Assembly: GCA_020846745.1 (NCBI GenBank)
Contig: JADLDI010000099.1
Coordinates: forward strand, 62,001 to 126,000
Source of the DNA: Bryobacterales bacterium
GTDB taxonomy: Bacteria > Acidobacteriota > Terriglobia > Bryobacterales > Bryobacteraceae
DNA length: 64,000 nt
Direction: 5' to 3'
The notes under the pieces are model-generated. The model saw only the letters and a list, made by a program, of their open reading frames with translations, searched no databases and was not told where the DNA came from. Made by a program: the position numbers and the translations under genes. Numbering within the stretch: the first letter of the stretch is position 1; each line of letters opens with the position of its first letter. Positions 8,606-31,836 of the stretch are shown here, one piece after another.

Positions 8606-9778
8606 TTAGAGGACCTGCAGGAGCAGGCACTTCAGATAGAGCGTCTCGGGGACGGTCAACAGGATGGGGTGATCGGACGATTGGGTGCGGCGTTCGAGGA
8701 CGCGGACGGTGCGATTGGCGGCAAGCGATGCCTCGGCGACGACGCCCAGCAGGTCGGCCTCTGAGACGTGGTGGGAGCAGGAGCAAGTGATGAGGATGCC
8801 GCCGGGAGAGAGGAGTTGGAGGGCGCGCTGGTTGATTTCGCGGTAGCCGCGGAGGGCGGCTCGGACGTTCTGTTTGGATTTGGCGAAGGCCGGCGGGTCG
8901 AGGACGATGAGGTCGAAGCGGCGGCGGGAGGTGGAGAAGCGGGCGAGGGCATCGAAGGCGTCGGCTTCTTTAAACGAAACGTTTCGAATTGAATTGGCCG
9001 CCGCATTCCGTTGCGCCGTCCCCAGCGCCGCCGGTGACGCGTCAATCGCTTCCACCGTTTCCGCGTGACCGGCTAAGCGCAAAGCAAAGCCACCCGTCGA
9101 GGTGAAGCAGTCTAAAGCTAGTTTGGGGTGGAACGCCTCGGCAAGGCGTGCCGCGGCCTGATAGTTTTCCCGTTGATCGAGGAAGACTCCGGTCTTTTGG
9201 CCTCCGAAGATATCGGCATAGAAGGTGAGGCCATTCATTTGGATGGGAACGAGGTCGGGCAATTCGCCGATCAGGGTTTTCTTTTCGGAGGGAAGGTTTT
9301 CGAGACGCCTCGTCGCGCTATCGTTCCGGGCGGTGATGGAAATCGGCTGCAGGGTCGCGTTGAGCGCTTCGACGATGGCTGGCGTGTCGCGATCCATGCC
9401 TTGGGTAAGGAACTGAACGGAGAGGTGGCCGGCGTAGGAATCAACGATCAAGCCCGGGAGCAGGTCGGCTTCGGAGTGGACAAGGCGGTAAGCGTTGGAG
9501 CGATGGACGATCTGCTGGCGGAGGTGGAACGCGGCGGCGATGCGGTGGCGGTAGAAGTCCGCATCAACCGGGACTGGCTTGTTGTGGAGGAACCGGAGGG
9601 TGATTTGGGAAGTGGAGGAATAATGAGCGACGCCGAGGGGCTTGGCGGAATGGTCGAGGACCAGAACTGATTCGCCCGGCTGGGCGGCGCCGCGATCGGT
9701 AATATCAGAGGAAAAGATCCAGGGATGGCCGCCGGCGAACCGTTGGGCCGCGCGGCGGCTGATCCGAACAGAGTTCAT
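8606..9778 (-). CDS. Class I SAM-dependent rRNA methyltransferase, RlmI-like
   Basis: The 390-aa product combines an N-terminal PUA-like domain (residues ~1-75, with RFAGGHPWIFSSDI) and a Rossmann SAM-binding domain (DCFTSTGGFALRLAG) with the catalytic-loop motif VLDPPAFAKSKQN. This architecture belongs to the RlmI/RlmK-type family, which makes 5-methylcytosine in 23S rRNA. A late Cys in ITCSCSHHVSE fits the catalytic cysteine of that family. The ATG at 9778 is chosen because it overlaps the htpX stop (ATGA), indicating translational coupling, and because the PUA domain starts there; the open frame upstream to 9874 lies inside htpX. The exact modified base is an inference. Confidence 0.88.
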   Translation of the reverse strand: MNSVRISRRAAQRFAGGHPWIFSSDITDRGAAQPGESVLVLDHSAKPLGVAHYSSTSQITLRFLHNKPVPVDADFYRHRIAAAFHLRQQIVHRSNAYRLVHSEADLLPGLIVDSYAGHLSVQFLTQGMDRDTPAIVEALNATLQPISITARNDSATRRLENLPSEKKTLIGELPDLVPIQMNGLTFYADIFGGQKTGVFLDQRENYQAAARLAEAFHPKLALDCFTSTGGFALRLAGHAETVEAIDASPAALGTAQRNAAANSIRNVSFKEADAFDALARFSTSRRRFDLIVLDPPAFAKSKQNVRAALRGYREINQRALQLLSPGGILITCSCSHHVSEADLLGVVAEASLAANRTVRVLERRTQSSDHPILLTVPETLYLKCLLLQVL

Positions 9779-26635: not shown

Positions 26636-27364
26636 ATGCATACAAAAAGATTTGGCTACCTGCTATTGTTGCTTTTTCCGCACACTGTTGCGGCACAGGG
26701 AACGCCGAAGCTGGAAGTTTTCGGCGGCTATTCATTTATGAGCCTTTCCACTCGGTCGAGCCCAGCGATGGAGGCCGCCAATGTCAACGGCTGGAATGGT
26801 TCTATTAAATACAATCTGTCGTCGAGAATCGGCCTGCTTGCGGACTTCGGAGGCCAATACGGCAAGAGAGGTATGCGGCCGCTATCAATAGTCACGGGTG
26901 GAGTGATCAGTGATCGGCCAGGCGCTCCGTGGTTCAGCGGGAACTCCGCCGCGCAGACTGAGTTTCAGATCGTGCCTGAGCCTGCCAACATCCACCAGCA
27001 CACGCTCCTGTTTGGGCCGGAAATCCGCGTTCACCGTGGCGCCCGGTTGACCGTCAACGTGCATGGATTAGCGGGGATGGCGCTCACAAGCCGCAGCGTT
27101 TTCCCTTTACGAGAACCCTACCGGCAGCCGCCGGATCTGCTGGGCAATGTGCCGCCGCCGCTAACGGAACTCAGCTATGGCGGCAAGCGGTGGTTTGCAG
27201 CCTCCGTGGGCGGGAGCGTTGATTACAGAATCACGGATCGCCTCTCGTATCGAATCATTCAGCCCGACCTGGCGGTGACGTTCACCAACCAATTTGACAG
27301 CGTTCGCGCCTACGGTAACGTGCGCCTTTCGACAGGCCTCGTGTTCAATTTTGGGCGCCGGTGA
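26636..27364 (+). CDS. Outer-membrane beta-barrel protein
   Basis: This 242-aa protein has a signal peptide (HTKRFGYLLLLLFPHTVAAQ) followed by alternating amphipathic strands with aromatic girdles: KLEVFGGYSFMSLS, WNGSIKYNLSSRIGLLADFGG, HTLLFGPEIRVHRGARLTVN, RWFAASVGGSVDYRITDRLSY and the C-terminal RLSTGLVFNFG. This resembles the OmpA/OmpW-like barrel domain common in Acidobacteria. ATG 26636 is chosen because it opens the signal. Four bases separate it from the VWFA gene. No ligand can be inferred. Confidence 0.8.
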   Translation: MHTKRFGYLLLLLFPHTVAAQGTPKLEVFGGYSFMSLSTRSSPAMEAANVNGWNGSIKYNLSSRIGLLADFGGQYGKRGMRPLSIVTGGVISDRPGAPWFSGNSAAQTEFQIVPEPANIHQHTLLFGPEIRVHRGARLTVNVHGLAGMALTSRSVFPLREPYRQPPDLLGNVPPPLTELSYGGKRWFAASVGGSVDYRITDRLSYRIIQPDLAVTFTNQFDSVRAYGNVRLSTGLVFNFGRR

Positions 27365-27368
27365 TCGA

Positions 27369-28436
27369 ATGGTTCGCTATCTTTTAGCTGCCATGTTCAC
27401 GAGCGTCCTGTTGGCGCAGGACTCCCGGTTCGCGACGCAGTCCAGGCTCGTGCTGGTTCCGGTAAACGTAACCGACATGAAAGGACGTGACGTCGCCAAC
27501 TTACGGGCGGATGACTTCATCGTTCTGGACAACGGCAATCCGCAGAAGGCGATGGTGGACACAATCGATACAGGAATCGCCCCTGTCGCATTAGTCGTCG
27601 CGGTGCAGTCATCGGGTATCTCGTCGGCGGTACTCGAAAAGGTAGAGAAAATCGGGTCCTTAATCCCGACATTAGTCACCGGGGAGCGAGGCTGCGCGGG
27701 ACTGCTTTCGTTCGCTGAGAAAGTGACATGGCTCCAGGAATGCACAAAGGACCCCGATCTGTTCCAGCGTGCTTTGTACGACCTTAGGCCAGGCCGGCCT
27801 AAGGATGCGCGCATGCTCGACGCGGCCAACTCCGCTATCGCGCACCTGCGCAAGCATTCGAATGCGCGGCGCGTGCTGCTGCTGATCTCCGAATCGCGCG
27901 ACCGCAACAGCGAGACCTCGCTTGAGTCCGTCGCTATCGCGGCGCAAAGCGCGGGAGTGGCCGTCTACGCCGCTACCTATTCGGCTTTTAAGACCGCATT
28001 CACATCCAAGCGCGCGCTTAACCAACCGCCCGAATCGAATCGCCCGAAGCGGCCTACCGATCAGACGGGTACGGTAAATGGTCAATCGCCGGGTCTGGTG
28101 AATCCTCCTCTCCCTCCGCCCGAGCAACGGGTCGACATTCTCGGTGGACTTGGCGAACTGCTGCGGCTTCATAAGGCCAACACCACGGAAGTTCTGACAC
28201 GAGCGACCGGTGGCACCGCGTTCGCCTTTACCAAGCAGAAGGCGCTTGAGGAGGCCATCCAGAAACTTGGATCTGACCTGCACTCGCAGTACCTGCTCAG
28301 TTTTGTGCCGGGGGCCTCTCCGCCCGGGTATCACGCCATCGAAGTCCGGCTTGCTCGTCCGGGGGAGTTTCGCCTACGCGCTCGGCCTGGGTACTGGGCC
28401 GCCGAAGATCCGGGATCGACCACGAGGGCGCAGTAA
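27369..28436 (+). CDS. Acidobacterial VWFA-related domain protein
   Basis: This 355-aa secreted protein (signal MVRYLLAAMFTSVLLAQ) contains the N-terminal beta module SRLVLVPVNVTDMKGRDVANLRADDFIVLDNG, characteristic of the acidobacterial VWFA-related family. A von Willebrand A-like domain runs over about residues 60-210 (LRKHSNARRVLLLISESRDR), and the family's C-terminal segment is QYLLSFVPGASPPGYHAIEV. The MIDAS position, usually DxSxS, reads VAVQSSGIS, so the first Asp is missing and metal-dependent binding may be lost. The family's role is unknown; co-occurrence with barrels suggests envelope adhesion or assembly. Confidence 0.88.
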   Translation: MVRYLLAAMFTSVLLAQDSRFATQSRLVLVPVNVTDMKGRDVANLRADDFIVLDNGNPQKAMVDTIDTGIAPVALVVAVQSSGISSAVLEKVEKIGSLIPTLVTGERGCAGLLSFAEKVTWLQECTKDPDLFQRALYDLRPGRPKDARMLDAANSAIAHLRKHSNARRVLLLISESRDRNSETSLESVAIAAQSAGVAVYAATYSAFKTAFTSKRALNQPPESNRPKRPTDQTGTVNGQSPGLVNPPLPPPEQRVDILGGLGELLRLHKANTTEVLTRATGGTAFAFTKQKALEEAIQKLGSDLHSQYLLSFVPGASPPGYHAIEVRLARPGEFRLRARPGYWAAEDPGSTTRAQ

Positions 28437-28514
28437 TGGCGAGTCGCAAGCCCAGCCGCGCCGGTCGTTAGATGAACAACGGGGTCGCGACGCAGCCGCT
28501 ATTCATAGGTTATT

Positions 28515-29171
28515 ATGCGAATTAAACAAACTGTTCTATCAATTGCGCTGGCCGCATTTACACTTCCAACTTTTGCGCAGTCTATTTCCTTCGGGGTAAA
28601 GGGAGGCGTACCGCTTACCGAAGCCTTCTCGACAGATCAACGTTATCCGGAGATCACGCAGTCTTCGGTTACACGGCGCTACGCGGTAGGCCCGACCGCC
28701 GAGATCGGCCTGCCGATCCTCGGCCTCGGTGTTGAGGCCACTGCTCTATACCGCCGGATCGGGTGGGACACCAAGAGGAGCGACCCGTCAGACCCCTATC
28801 TCATCACCGTGCGGTCCGGCGCCTGGGACTTCAGTGCACTTCTCAAACACCGATTCGAACGCGCGGGCTGGCGTCCGTACCTGGGTGGCGGGGCCGCGTT
28901 GCGCCGCATGTTCACCACCAGGACCGAGGCGGAATTCCTGGGTCAGCCAAACAGGCACATCTCCAAGCAGATGGTGGATGAGTTGAAGCGCAAGAATATC
29001 GCTGGACTCGTCGCTTCGGCCGGAGTTGAACTGGGCAGTGGGCCTGTGCGGATCTCACCCGAATTGCGGTACACCCGCTGGCTGATGAACAACATCTACC
29101 CGGCCTTCCCGCTCAGCACCCAAGCAAATCAGGTAGACCTTCTCGTGTCAATTACCTTTGGGAGCCGGTGA
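28515..29171 (+). CDS. Outer-membrane beta-barrel protein (single barrel)
   Basis: This 218-aa protein has a signal peptide (KQTVLSIALAAFTLPTFAQ) and a barrel beginning SISFGVKGGVPLTEAF, with VEATALYRRIGWD, WDFSALLKHRFERAGWRPYLGGG, RISPELRYTRWL and the C-terminal VDLLVSITFG. The same landmarks appear twice in the next protein, so the genes are paralogues. The stop overlaps the next start by one base (TGATG), indicating coupling. Confidence 0.82.
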   Translation: MRIKQTVLSIALAAFTLPTFAQSISFGVKGGVPLTEAFSTDQRYPEITQSSVTRRYAVGPTAEIGLPILGLGVEATALYRRIGWDTKRSDPSDPYLITVRSGAWDFSALLKHRFERAGWRPYLGGGAALRRMFTTRTEAEFLGQPNRHISKQMVDELKRKNIAGLVASAGVELGSGPVRISPELRYTRWLMNNIYPAFPLSTQANQVDLLVSITFGSR

Positions 29172-30361
29172 TGAACAGGACGACGAAAATTGTAGCGGTG
29201 GCGGCGCTCGCCTTGTGCAGCGCGTCGAGTGTGCTGGGGCAGCGCGTGTCGTTTGGTTTCGTCGGAGGCACGCCGCTTACGCGCGATTTCCCGATTACCA
29301 GAATGTTTTACACGAACCCGGAGATCTCGAATGATCTGATCGCCTTCGACTGGTTCTCCGATACCCGAACTTTCCTTGCGGGCCTATCCGTAGAGATTGA
29401 CTTGGGCAAGGGCATCTCTCTCGAAGGGAACGTCTTGCACCGTACCCTTCACCTTCAGAGGCGAAACGTCTTTCCCAACGGTTCTTCGGAGTATCTGGGC
29501 GAGGTCACTCCCAGCACTTGGGAGTGGCCGATTTTGGCAAAGTACCGGCTACCAGTGCGTGGGGCCGTGCGGCCATTCATTGAGGCGGGACCATCGTTCA
29601 GAACCCGTCATAACCAGGTCCCGGCGGAACCGTCGCAGTTTGGGGCTACGGCCGGGACGGGCGTCGAGTTTCGGTTTGGCCGGTTCAAGGTCTCACCGGC
29701 GCTGCGGTATACGCGATGGCAGTACGACGGCGATTTTCCGCGAGCGGCGACAAAGCGCGATCAGATCGAGTTTGTTACCGGCATCAGTTACGCGACTTCC
29801 ATCCCGTCCTGGCAACTGGGGAAAAGAAAGCTCCGCCTTGGGCTGGTCGGCGGCACACCACTGACCGGTGGGCTAAAGGAACTGCGCCGGCCCGAACGCC
29901 TCGACGAGGAGCAGGGCTACATGGGCGGCATCGCAGTGGAATTGGATCTGAGCCGCCGTGTGTCGATTGAAGTGAATGGCCTGTATCGTCCGTTTCGCGC
30001 TCGCAGCTACGGCGCTCAATTCGACCCGTCCGGCGCTCTTATTCCAAGCGATTATGGTTTCGAGTTCACGGTCGTGACTTGGCAATTCCCCGCTCTTGCG
30101 AAGTACCGCTTGCTGCCCGCGTCGAAGGTCCGTCCCGTGCTTGAGGCCGGTCCGTCGTTCCGCGCGGCGGGCAACCTGAATGGTTACAATCCGTCGCACT
30201 TCGGCATCACTGCCGGCGGAGGAATCGAGACAAGCTACAGGGCCATGAAGATCAGCCCGGTACTGCGATACACGCGGTGGGCGAAAGATCCAGCAGGCAC
30301 TGTGCGATCGGCCAGCACCGCGGCGAACCAAGTGGAATTCCTGTGTTCGTTCACTTTCTGA
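29171..30361 (+). CDS. Outer-membrane protein with two tandem barrel domains
   Basis: This 396-aa protein has a signal peptide (KIVAVAALALCSASSVLGQ) and two copies of the barrel found in the upstream gene. Copy 1 (about residues 25-215) runs from RVSFGFVGGTPLTRDF to KVSPALRYTRWQYDGD and QIEFVTGISY. Copy 2 (about 220-396) runs from KLRLGLVGGTPLTGGL to KISPVLRYTRWAKD and QVEFLCSFTF. The linker is short and charged (SWQLGKRK). Only the second copy ends with the terminal-Phe signature used by the outer-membrane assembly machinery. Whether this makes one large or two small barrels is unclear. Confidence 0.82.
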   Translation: MNRTTKIVAVAALALCSASSVLGQRVSFGFVGGTPLTRDFPITRMFYTNPEISNDLIAFDWFSDTRTFLAGLSVEIDLGKGISLEGNVLHRTLHLQRRNVFPNGSSEYLGEVTPSTWEWPILAKYRLPVRGAVRPFIEAGPSFRTRHNQVPAEPSQFGATAGTGVEFRFGRFKVSPALRYTRWQYDGDFPRAATKRDQIEFVTGISYATSIPSWQLGKRKLRLGLVGGTPLTGGLKELRRPERLDEEQGYMGGIAVELDLSRRVSIEVNGLYRPFRARSYGAQFDPSGALIPSDYGFEFTVVTWQFPALAKYRLLPASKVRPVLEAGPSFRAAGNLNGYNPSHFGITAGGGIETSYRAMKISPVLRYTRWAKDPAGTVRSASTAANQVEFLCSFTF

Positions 30362-30492: not shown

Positions 30493-31836
30493 TTATAAAT
30501 TGACATCCACCACTTCGTCGAAAATATCGGTCGGCACCTTGACGCCGTAGATGCGGAAGCGGTCGAGTAACTTTGGTGCGACGCCGGTCGCCTTGAAGCG
30601 GCCCTGCACCTTGCCCGCGTCGTTCACGCCCAAGCGTTCAAAAGTGAAGATTTCCTGGAGCGATACCGTATCGTCTTCAACGCCGGTTACTTCGGCGATG
30701 GAGACTACCTTGCGAGTGCCGTCCTGTAAGCGGGAGATCTGGACGACTAACTTGATGGCGCTGGCTAACTGCTGGACGACCACGCGGGTGGGCAGTTCTA
30801 AGTCCGCCATCAGGACCATCGCCTGCAAACGGGAAAAGGCGTCTTTGGGCGAGTTGGCGTGGATCGTGCTCATAGAGCCTTCGACACCGGTGTTCATGGC
30901 CTGCAACATGTCGAGCGCTTCGGCGCCGCGGCACTCGCCGACGATGATACGGTCAGGCCGCATGCGGAGCGCCGTGCGCACGAGTTGGCGCTGATTGATG
31001 CCGCCCTGTTTGTTGAGGTTCGGCGGACGCGTTTCGAATTTGATGACGTGGCGCTGCTGGAGTTGGAGTTCGGCCGTATCTTCGATGGTGATGATGCGCT
31101 CTTCTTCGGGGATGAAGCGCGAGAGCGCGTTAAGCGTGGTGGTCTTACCGGAACCGGTTCCGCCGGAGACGAGCACCGTGGCCTTCGATTGGACGGTGGC
31201 GGCGAGGAAGCGCAGCATGCCGGACATGAGCGTCTTGTTGCCGATCATCTCGTCGGAAGTGATGACGTGGCGGCCGAAGCGGCGGATAGAGAGGGCGGGT
31301 CCGTCAAGCGCGAGGGGCGGGATGATGGCATTGACGCGCGAACCGTCAAGCAGGCGCGCGTCCACCACGGGGTTGGCTTCATCGATGCGCCGCCCTACGA
31401 GCGACACGATTTTCTCGATGATGTGCAGCAGGTGGGTGTTGTCTTTGAAGCGGACCGGAGAGAGCGAAAGCTTGCCCTGGCGTTCGACGTAAACGCGATT
31501 GTAGCCGTTGACGAGAATATCGGAGATGGAGGGTTCTTTAAGAAGGGGTTCCAGCGGGCCGAGGCCCAGCACCTCGTCGAGCACCTCTTCTACAATCTTA
31601 TTCTGCTCGGCGGTGGTCATCGGGACGCGCTCGTCTTCAAGCAGGCGTTCCACCACGCGGCCGATTTCGGAACGGACCCGGTCTTTGGGTAGAGACGACA
31701 CCCGGTCGAGGTCGAGTACGCCGATCAGCTTGCGGTGGACTTCGGACTTGAGTTCGAAGATACGGTCGGCCGAGCGCGGCGGACCAGCGGGCGCCCCACC
31801 GGGACGCGGCGGCATCGGACGGAAACTAGATCCCAC
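30493..31836 (-). CDS. cpaF: CpaF/TadA-type secretion ATPase
   Basis: This 447-aa hexameric ATPase powers Tad (Flp) pilus assembly. Walker A GGTGSGKTTTL lies at 225-235, the Asp box reads IITIEDTAELQL, Walker B reads IIVGECRGAEAL and the His box reads STIHANSPKDAFSRLQ. The N-terminal domain has the CpaF signature EEVLDEVLGLGPLEPLL and DILVNG. A Pro-rich start (PMPPRPGGAPAGPP) precedes it. Other tad genes are not adjacent in this window, though the Flp pilin at 22041-22241 is on the same strand. It starts 31 nt from a divergent gene. Confidence 0.93.
   Translation of the reverse strand: MGSSFRPMPPRPGGAPAGPPRSADRIFELKSEVHRKLIGVLDLDRVSSLPKDRVRSEIGRVVERLLEDERVPMTTAEQNKIVEEVLDEVLGLGPLEPLLKEPSISDILVNGYNRVYVERQGKLSLSPVRFKDNTHLLHIIEKIVSLVGRRIDEANPVVDARLLDGSRVNAIIPPLALDGPALSIRRFGRHVITSDEMIGNKTLMSGMLRFLAATVQSKATVLVSGGTGSGKTTTLNALSRFIPEEERIITIEDTAELQLQQRHVIKFETRPPNLNKQGGINQRQLVRTALRMRPDRIIVGECRGAEALDMLQAMNTGVEGSMSTIHANSPKDAFSRLQAMVLMADLELPTRVVVQQLASAIKLVVQISRLQDGTRKVVSIAEVTGVEDDTVSLQEIFTFERLGVNDAGKVQGRFKATGVAPKLLDRFRIYGVKVPTDIFDEVVDVNL

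Follow-up and report, generated by a model that had tools for sequence, protein, structure and literature searches.

The question raised by this locus is whether a tight run of envelope genes, one of which appears to carry two outer membrane barrels in a single chain, represents an apparatus that evolved on the spot, or whether the double-barrel gene has a history of its own. The window under study, i.e., the whole stretch of 64,000 nucleotides that was analysed, comes from a member of the Bryobacterales (Acidobacteriota; GenBank assembly GCA_020846745.1, contig JADLDI010000099.1, positions 62,001 to 126,000), and it holds on its plus strand four genes which we call A (26636–27364), B (27369–28436), C (28515–29171) and D (29171–30361). 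All four open reading frames (ORFs) are genuine genes and, by eye, look exported, each beginning with a signal-peptide-like stretch. A preliminary description of this DNA regarded them as an envelope apparatus evolved by duplication. We argue here that D is likely an order-level, lineage-specific acidobacterial multi-barrel outer membrane protein (OMP), in which an old duplication of a whole barrel has given two separately closed barrels of the OmpA/OmpW class, joined as a tethered pseudo-dimer at the cell surface.

That D contains an internal duplication, as first proposed, was borne out by the comparison of its two halves (D1 and D2), which are 37.7% identical (E = 6e-36; 55 standard deviations, sd, over 300 shuffles). 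In a Pfam search with curated cut-offs of 27 bits for PF13568 and 28.7 bits for PF13505, D matched both families above cut-off (43.2 and 37.7 bits, respectively), each in two stretches. C, a single eight-stranded barrel of the OMP_b-brl_2 type, matched PF13568 above its cut-off (39.3 bits) and PF13505 below it (19.3 bits), and it is 28–29% identical to the halves of D (28 sd for D1 and 19 sd for D2 over shuffles). The claim of three homologous barrel domains in C and D is therefore upheld, and so is that of their coupling, since the stop codon of C overlaps the start of D in the sequence TGATG. A terminal phenylalanine had been listed among the landmarks common to these domains, and this is correct for D2 but not for C, which ends in F-G-S-R, nor for the first barrel of D, which ends in ISYATS and is followed by the linker. 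A search of PDB sequences with a D profile returned nothing at E ≤ 1. Gene A, taken initially for a further barrel gene, itself matched no Pfam or NCBIfam family and showed no clear sequence relation to C, D1 or D2 (−1.3, 3.1 and 1.6 sd, none beating the best of 300 shuffles), but the only two of its relatives that were scanned (L059 and L064) matched PF13505 with 36.5 and 34.7 bits, above the cut-off. A is thus probably an outer membrane barrel of the PF13505 type, and of a different type from C and D.

Whether D forms two barrels or one large barrel was addressed by structure prediction. AlphaFold, given 30 homologues beside the mature D chain, modelled a pair of closed barrels with a short linker between them, with a predicted local distance difference test (pLDDT) score of 88.2 and a predicted template modelling (pTM) score of 0.60; a non-barrel fold was not obtained. 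The second half predicted alone scored higher (pLDDT 90.3, pTM 0.83). In VIA-align superpositions, residues 1–186 of the D model fell on the N-terminal barrel of OprF (Z 17.8, root-mean-square deviation, rmsd, 2.1, 126 residues aligned), residues 1–187 fell on OmpA (Z 16.2, rmsd 2.3, 128 aligned), and among the superpositions listed for the whole model none extends past residue 202. The model of barrel 2 likewise superposed on OmpA (Z 16.1, rmsd 3.1, 158 aligned). Identities between the D halves and known eight-stranded barrels are 9–17% in the superpositions listed. The strand list, in our own reading, gives each half eight strands, three short turns on one side and, on the other, four longer loops. 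With the first half closed on itself, D would comprise two barrels of the OmpA/OprF type rather than one of 16 strands; by prediction, it carries two separately closed barrels in one chain, as multi-barrel proteins do, and is not a single closed 16-stranded barrel. On this model, the chain consists of a signal-peptide region, recognized by eye in the sequence (residues 1–23, 29171–29239, its start overlapping the stop of C), barrel 1 (mature residues 1–187, 29240–29800), a linker of variable sequence (29801–29824) and barrel 2 with its terminal phenylalanine (29825–30361).

Conservation, computed as entropy on an alignment of 31 doubles, agrees with this layout. Strands are better conserved than loops in both halves (mean entropy 1.44 vs. 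2.59 in half 1 and 1.57 vs. 2.69 in half 2). All 16 strands alternate between a polar and a hydrophobic face, of which the polar one, taken for each half as a whole, is the better conserved (1.12 vs. 1.76 in half 1 and 1.34 vs. 1.80 in half 2), and it carries charged residues that match between the halves (E62/E244, K101/K288, R121/R308 and R156/R343). By this measure, decay is seen in neither half. Insertion of D into the outer membrane is consistent with its signal-peptide-like start, its amphipathic strands and its terminal phenylalanine. In OmpA, inward charged residues fill the lumen. Given the charged polar faces of D, we infer that both of its barrels may be plugged in the same manner.

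Taken together, we hypothesize that an old duplication of a whole barrel placed two eight-stranded OmpA/OmpW-class barrels in one D chain, where a linker of about eight residues, on the periplasmic side if the expected membrane topology holds, would tether them. Such a covalent pseudo-dimer would bring eight variable loops next to one another outside the cell, while a conserved Glu/Lys/Arg network would fill both lumens. D would then most likely serve in binding or structure at the cell surface, and not as a diffusion pore, judging from what is generally known of OmpA-type barrels.

The alternative is a single porin-like barrel of 16 strands formed by the whole D chain, a natural counterpart of the artificial duplication of OmpX reportedly described by Arnold in 2007. 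Two eight-stranded repeats with a short linker between them are what such a barrel would require, and Foldseek does align the whole of D with 16-stranded porins over at least 400 columns (E ~1e-5). However, these superpositions are poor (template modelling score ~0.2, rmsd >20), the first half of the model superposes on closed eight-stranded barrels, as does the second half when predicted alone, and each half retains its own polar-face residues. We therefore consider a single large barrel very unlikely. It is also quite unlikely, though conceivable, that the D family represents a natural and long-kept step from 8 to 8 + 8 strands that stands, with both lumens intact, halfway to a 16-stranded pore, perhaps switching to a single-pore form in the membrane. 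The reading as two closed barrels has the Foldseek alignment to reckon with, and further points count against it: the alignments used by AlphaFold were shallow (31 and 20 sequences only), the pTM of 0.60 leaves the mutual placement of the two predicted barrels open, and strand 7 of half 1 reverses the rule of conservation (entropy 1.20 on the polar and 0.95 on the hydrophobic face), although strand 7 of half 2 follows it (1.09 vs. 1.39).

The D duplication is not confined to this locus. A second double barrel, 39% identical to D, is encoded in the window's own genome, and D was matched at E ≤ 1e-6 in 48 of the 81 genomes searched. Among 18 regions that were read closely, 11 contain complete doubles, and the genomes of these belong to the window's family or to another family of the same order; the others hold a deleted double (L043), single barrels (L047 and L048), or barrels that are fragmented, incomplete or truncated where a contig ends (L052–L055). 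A scan of genome contigs, in which some records were placed no finer than Acidobacteria or Terriglobia, gave 79 loci with both barrels in one frame in 32 of them, a proportion that is not a frequency because the scan was seeded with doubles. When 149 genomes were drawn evenly from the phylum, with at most 13 candidates scored per genome listed, two had a match at E ≤ 1e-25, namely the window's own genome, over the full length, and a second genome, in which a half was matched. Altogether, both barrels lie in one open frame in 44 locus entries, corresponding to 36 distinct sequences, and the matched barrel stretches are separated by 6–12 amino acids in 41 of these entries, the start of barrel 2 being unmatched in the other three.

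The age of the fusion was addressed with a tree of 111 units, made up of 35 pairs and 41 single barrels, partial units and duplicates being left out. On this tree, units labelled as first halves, second halves or singles are strongly clustered, the labels requiring 11 changes compared with a mean of 52.1 after shuffling. D1 and D2 have their nearest kin among the corresponding halves in other organisms, with identities of up to 80% and 76%, respectively, and the D fusion is therefore considered old. Several features of the tree tell against so simple a history: many deep forks of the barrel tree are weakly supported, the second halves are split mainly between two groups that face each other across the midpoint root, six first halves adjoin the principal set of single barrels, and among the first halves stand one second half (L128) and singles such as L142, L144, L149 and L147. 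Given these misplaced groups and weak forks, multiple fusions, swaps or losses are possible, and the tree may be read with one fusion or with more than one.

What the tree does not accommodate is an origin of D by recent, local duplication of C, to which the adjacency and homology of the two genes might point. The identity of C to D (28–29%) is below that between the D halves, the tree groups C with other single barrels, in a set of 31 (support 95) that lies apart from D, and D1 and D2 each have their closest relatives in other organisms as described above. Thus, local duplication from C to D is ruled out by the tree and the identities, and we give this origin virtually no credence; by these comparisons C is a remote single-barrel cousin of D and not the source of its duplication. 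The proposed apparatus evolved by local duplication is likewise unsupported: the D duplication is common to many genomes, C is not its parent and the neighbourhoods are unrelated.

Some barrel loci show other rearrangements. In L043 (9377–9763, genome G044), a D relative of 128 amino acids has the first strands of barrel 1 joined in frame to the last part of barrel 2, and an ORF just upstream (8934–9362) looks transposase-like by eye. Four tandem single-barrel frames, the first cut by a contig end, occupy one strand of L147 (2–3635), a pattern that we read as local amplification of unfused barrels. At L052 (8914–10192, the same place as L148), two barrels lie in adjacent overlapping frames and not in one chain, which are either two unfused genes or a double with a frameshift.

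It was said at the outset that the apparatus should be given up if gene order was conserved nowhere, and we found it conserved in nothing that was examined. A to D and six neighbouring genes were compared with the 18 barrel regions, and with 10 VWFA regions plus L047; the A-B-C-D order was repeated in no locus examined. A was found in none of the 18 barrel regions other than the window, B-like genes in one of them (L047, 22–28% identity), and A, C and D had no tblastn match (E ≤ 1e-3) in the 10 VWFA loci (L099–L108). Matches to the neighbours in these regions were scattered, comprising TonB receptors (23–27%), an MLE-like enzyme (22–24%) and TadA (39% in L055 and 58% in L101). Eight loci with near relatives of D (L109–L114, L116 and L117, from the 32 doubles) were compared with the window's frames of at least 120 codons and shared no neighbour in order with it; apart from the barrel gene, which was also read in other frames, the sole match was to a TonB receptor (29%, L111), while some of these eight are linked to each other by a few ORF similarities (27–39%). 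Similarly, profile searches of 12 loci with A relatives and 14 with C relatives, including about 1.5 kb of flank, revealed no VWFA gene and no second barrel of the C/D type. The nearest orthologues of B (49–61% identical) lie beside other genes, for instance, by eye, those for NADH dehydrogenase (L099) or a Tad cluster (L101). Because the relatives sit in differing neighbourhoods and the order is unrepeated, the cluster is local as far as seen: a conserved A-B-C-D cluster is ruled out by the gene-order comparisons of the loci examined, and A, B and C are, on this evidence, envelope genes tightly packed at this locus that do not travel with D.

It has nevertheless to be asked whether the four genes are a functional operon, in which B would act in the periplasm or on the cell surface, binding the barrels or assembling them. 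They share a strand and an exported look, and their spacing is tight (a 4-base gap from A to B and 78 bases from B to C, in addition to the C-D overlap). Further, VWFA-like genes of other subfamilies are found near barrels in four of the 79 loci (L142, L125, L177 and, weakly, L116), directly upstream of a single barrel on the same strand in the case of L142, while 1.5 VWFA genes would be expected over these 705 kb at the density of the window's own genome; a slight general association of VWFA proteins with barrels is thus possible. In L105 (genome G002), the B orthologue adjoins a weakly barrel-like ORF (PF13505 22.0 bits, below the cut-off of 28.7). Set against this are the unrepeated order, the lack of A, C and D matches in the VWFA loci, the single and distant B match in the barrel regions, and the flanks of the A and C relatives described above. 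The genes may work as an operon in this organism, but conservation gives no backing to this, and we regard an operon with such a role for B as unlikely. Promoter and terminator scans were at the shuffle level (1 vs. 1.5 and 4 vs. 4.1).

B itself is probably a secreted VWFA-domain protein, with 139.9 bits to the NCBIfam family TIGR03436 (acidobact_VWFA; cut-off 81.25 bits). The metal ion-dependent adhesion site (MIDAS) motif consists of DxSxS and an aspartate in the third loop. As had been noticed from the sequence, B has VAVQSSGIS in place of DxSxS; its third MIDAS loop is changed too (LLISESRD), and the residues of the motif are accordingly missing. Among 51 VWFA matches, the 28 with a matched stretch of more than 200 amino acids were aligned and represent 18 distinct proteins, 17 of which lack the first MIDAS aspartate and share A-[VI]-[QE], with L195 alone retaining it. 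Of the TIGR03436 genes above cut-off in the window's own genome, 9 of 17 have a strict DxSxS and 8, including B, do not, showing several different replacements; the motif list from which this count comes does not include the VWFA region L203, which is below cut-off. Judging from these alignments, the metal site has truly been lost, and the loss is conserved within B's own subfamily, yet it is common in the TIGR03436 family as a whole, and the 8 genes suggest repeated loss of metal binding in an expanded family. In Candidatus Solibacter usitatus, many divergent paralogues, including von Willebrand type A proteins, have been described, with gene order not conserved (PMC3174227).

Downstream of the four genes and convergent with D, a TadA-like secretion ATPase (T2SSE; PF00437, 211 bits) is encoded on the minus strand (30493–31836), to which the window's own genome has five further matches; we regard this gene as a neighbour and not as a member of the four-gene feature. 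In L101 (2417–6824, genome G029), the TadA that is 58% identical stands in a run with a TadZ-like gene and two T2SSF genes, convergent with the B orthologue. The C-D pair of the window may occupy the place of these two T2SSF genes.

The fold of each D half is that of OmpA, OprF and OmpW, which have one barrel per chain. Outer membrane proteins whose chain forms two or more separate barrels are reportedly numerous: Solan et al. are said to have described, in PNAS in 2021, many lineage-specific multi-barrel OMPs that arose by fusion or amplification, with combinations involving eight-stranded barrels prevailing, and D, by prediction, resembles these. GfcD/YjbH of Escherichia coli is likewise predicted to have two barrels in one chain; its barrels have 12 and 13 strands with a periplasmic domain between them, and it is encoded in a capsule operon (PMC8592465, PMC11494523), whereas D joins two homologous eight-stranded barrels through a short linker, and we found no neighbours conserved beside it. 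Fusions of complete outer membrane barrels, such as MnoP and 1.B.4.1.1, have also been described; those reported are alphaproteobacterial and mostly join different families (PMC4827864). Since multi-barrel OMPs such as GfcD have already been described, D is a lineage-specific addition to them, and the literature searched, by titles and abstract openings, contained no mention of acidobacterial double barrels. Acidobacteria would hence be added to the lineages with multi-barrel proteins, where they have possibly been listed already by others.

The family also bears on how barrels grow. An increase in strand number through the addition of hairpins has been argued for (PMC6340704), and the authors of PMC4827864 report that they tried without success to document a natural duplication from 8 to 16 strands. 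The duplication of a whole barrel is plain in the 36 distinct sequences gathered here, and by prediction it yields two barrels and not one pore. It may therefore be possible to test, in a compact natural family that includes one internally deleted derivative, what determines whether two small barrels form or a single large one.

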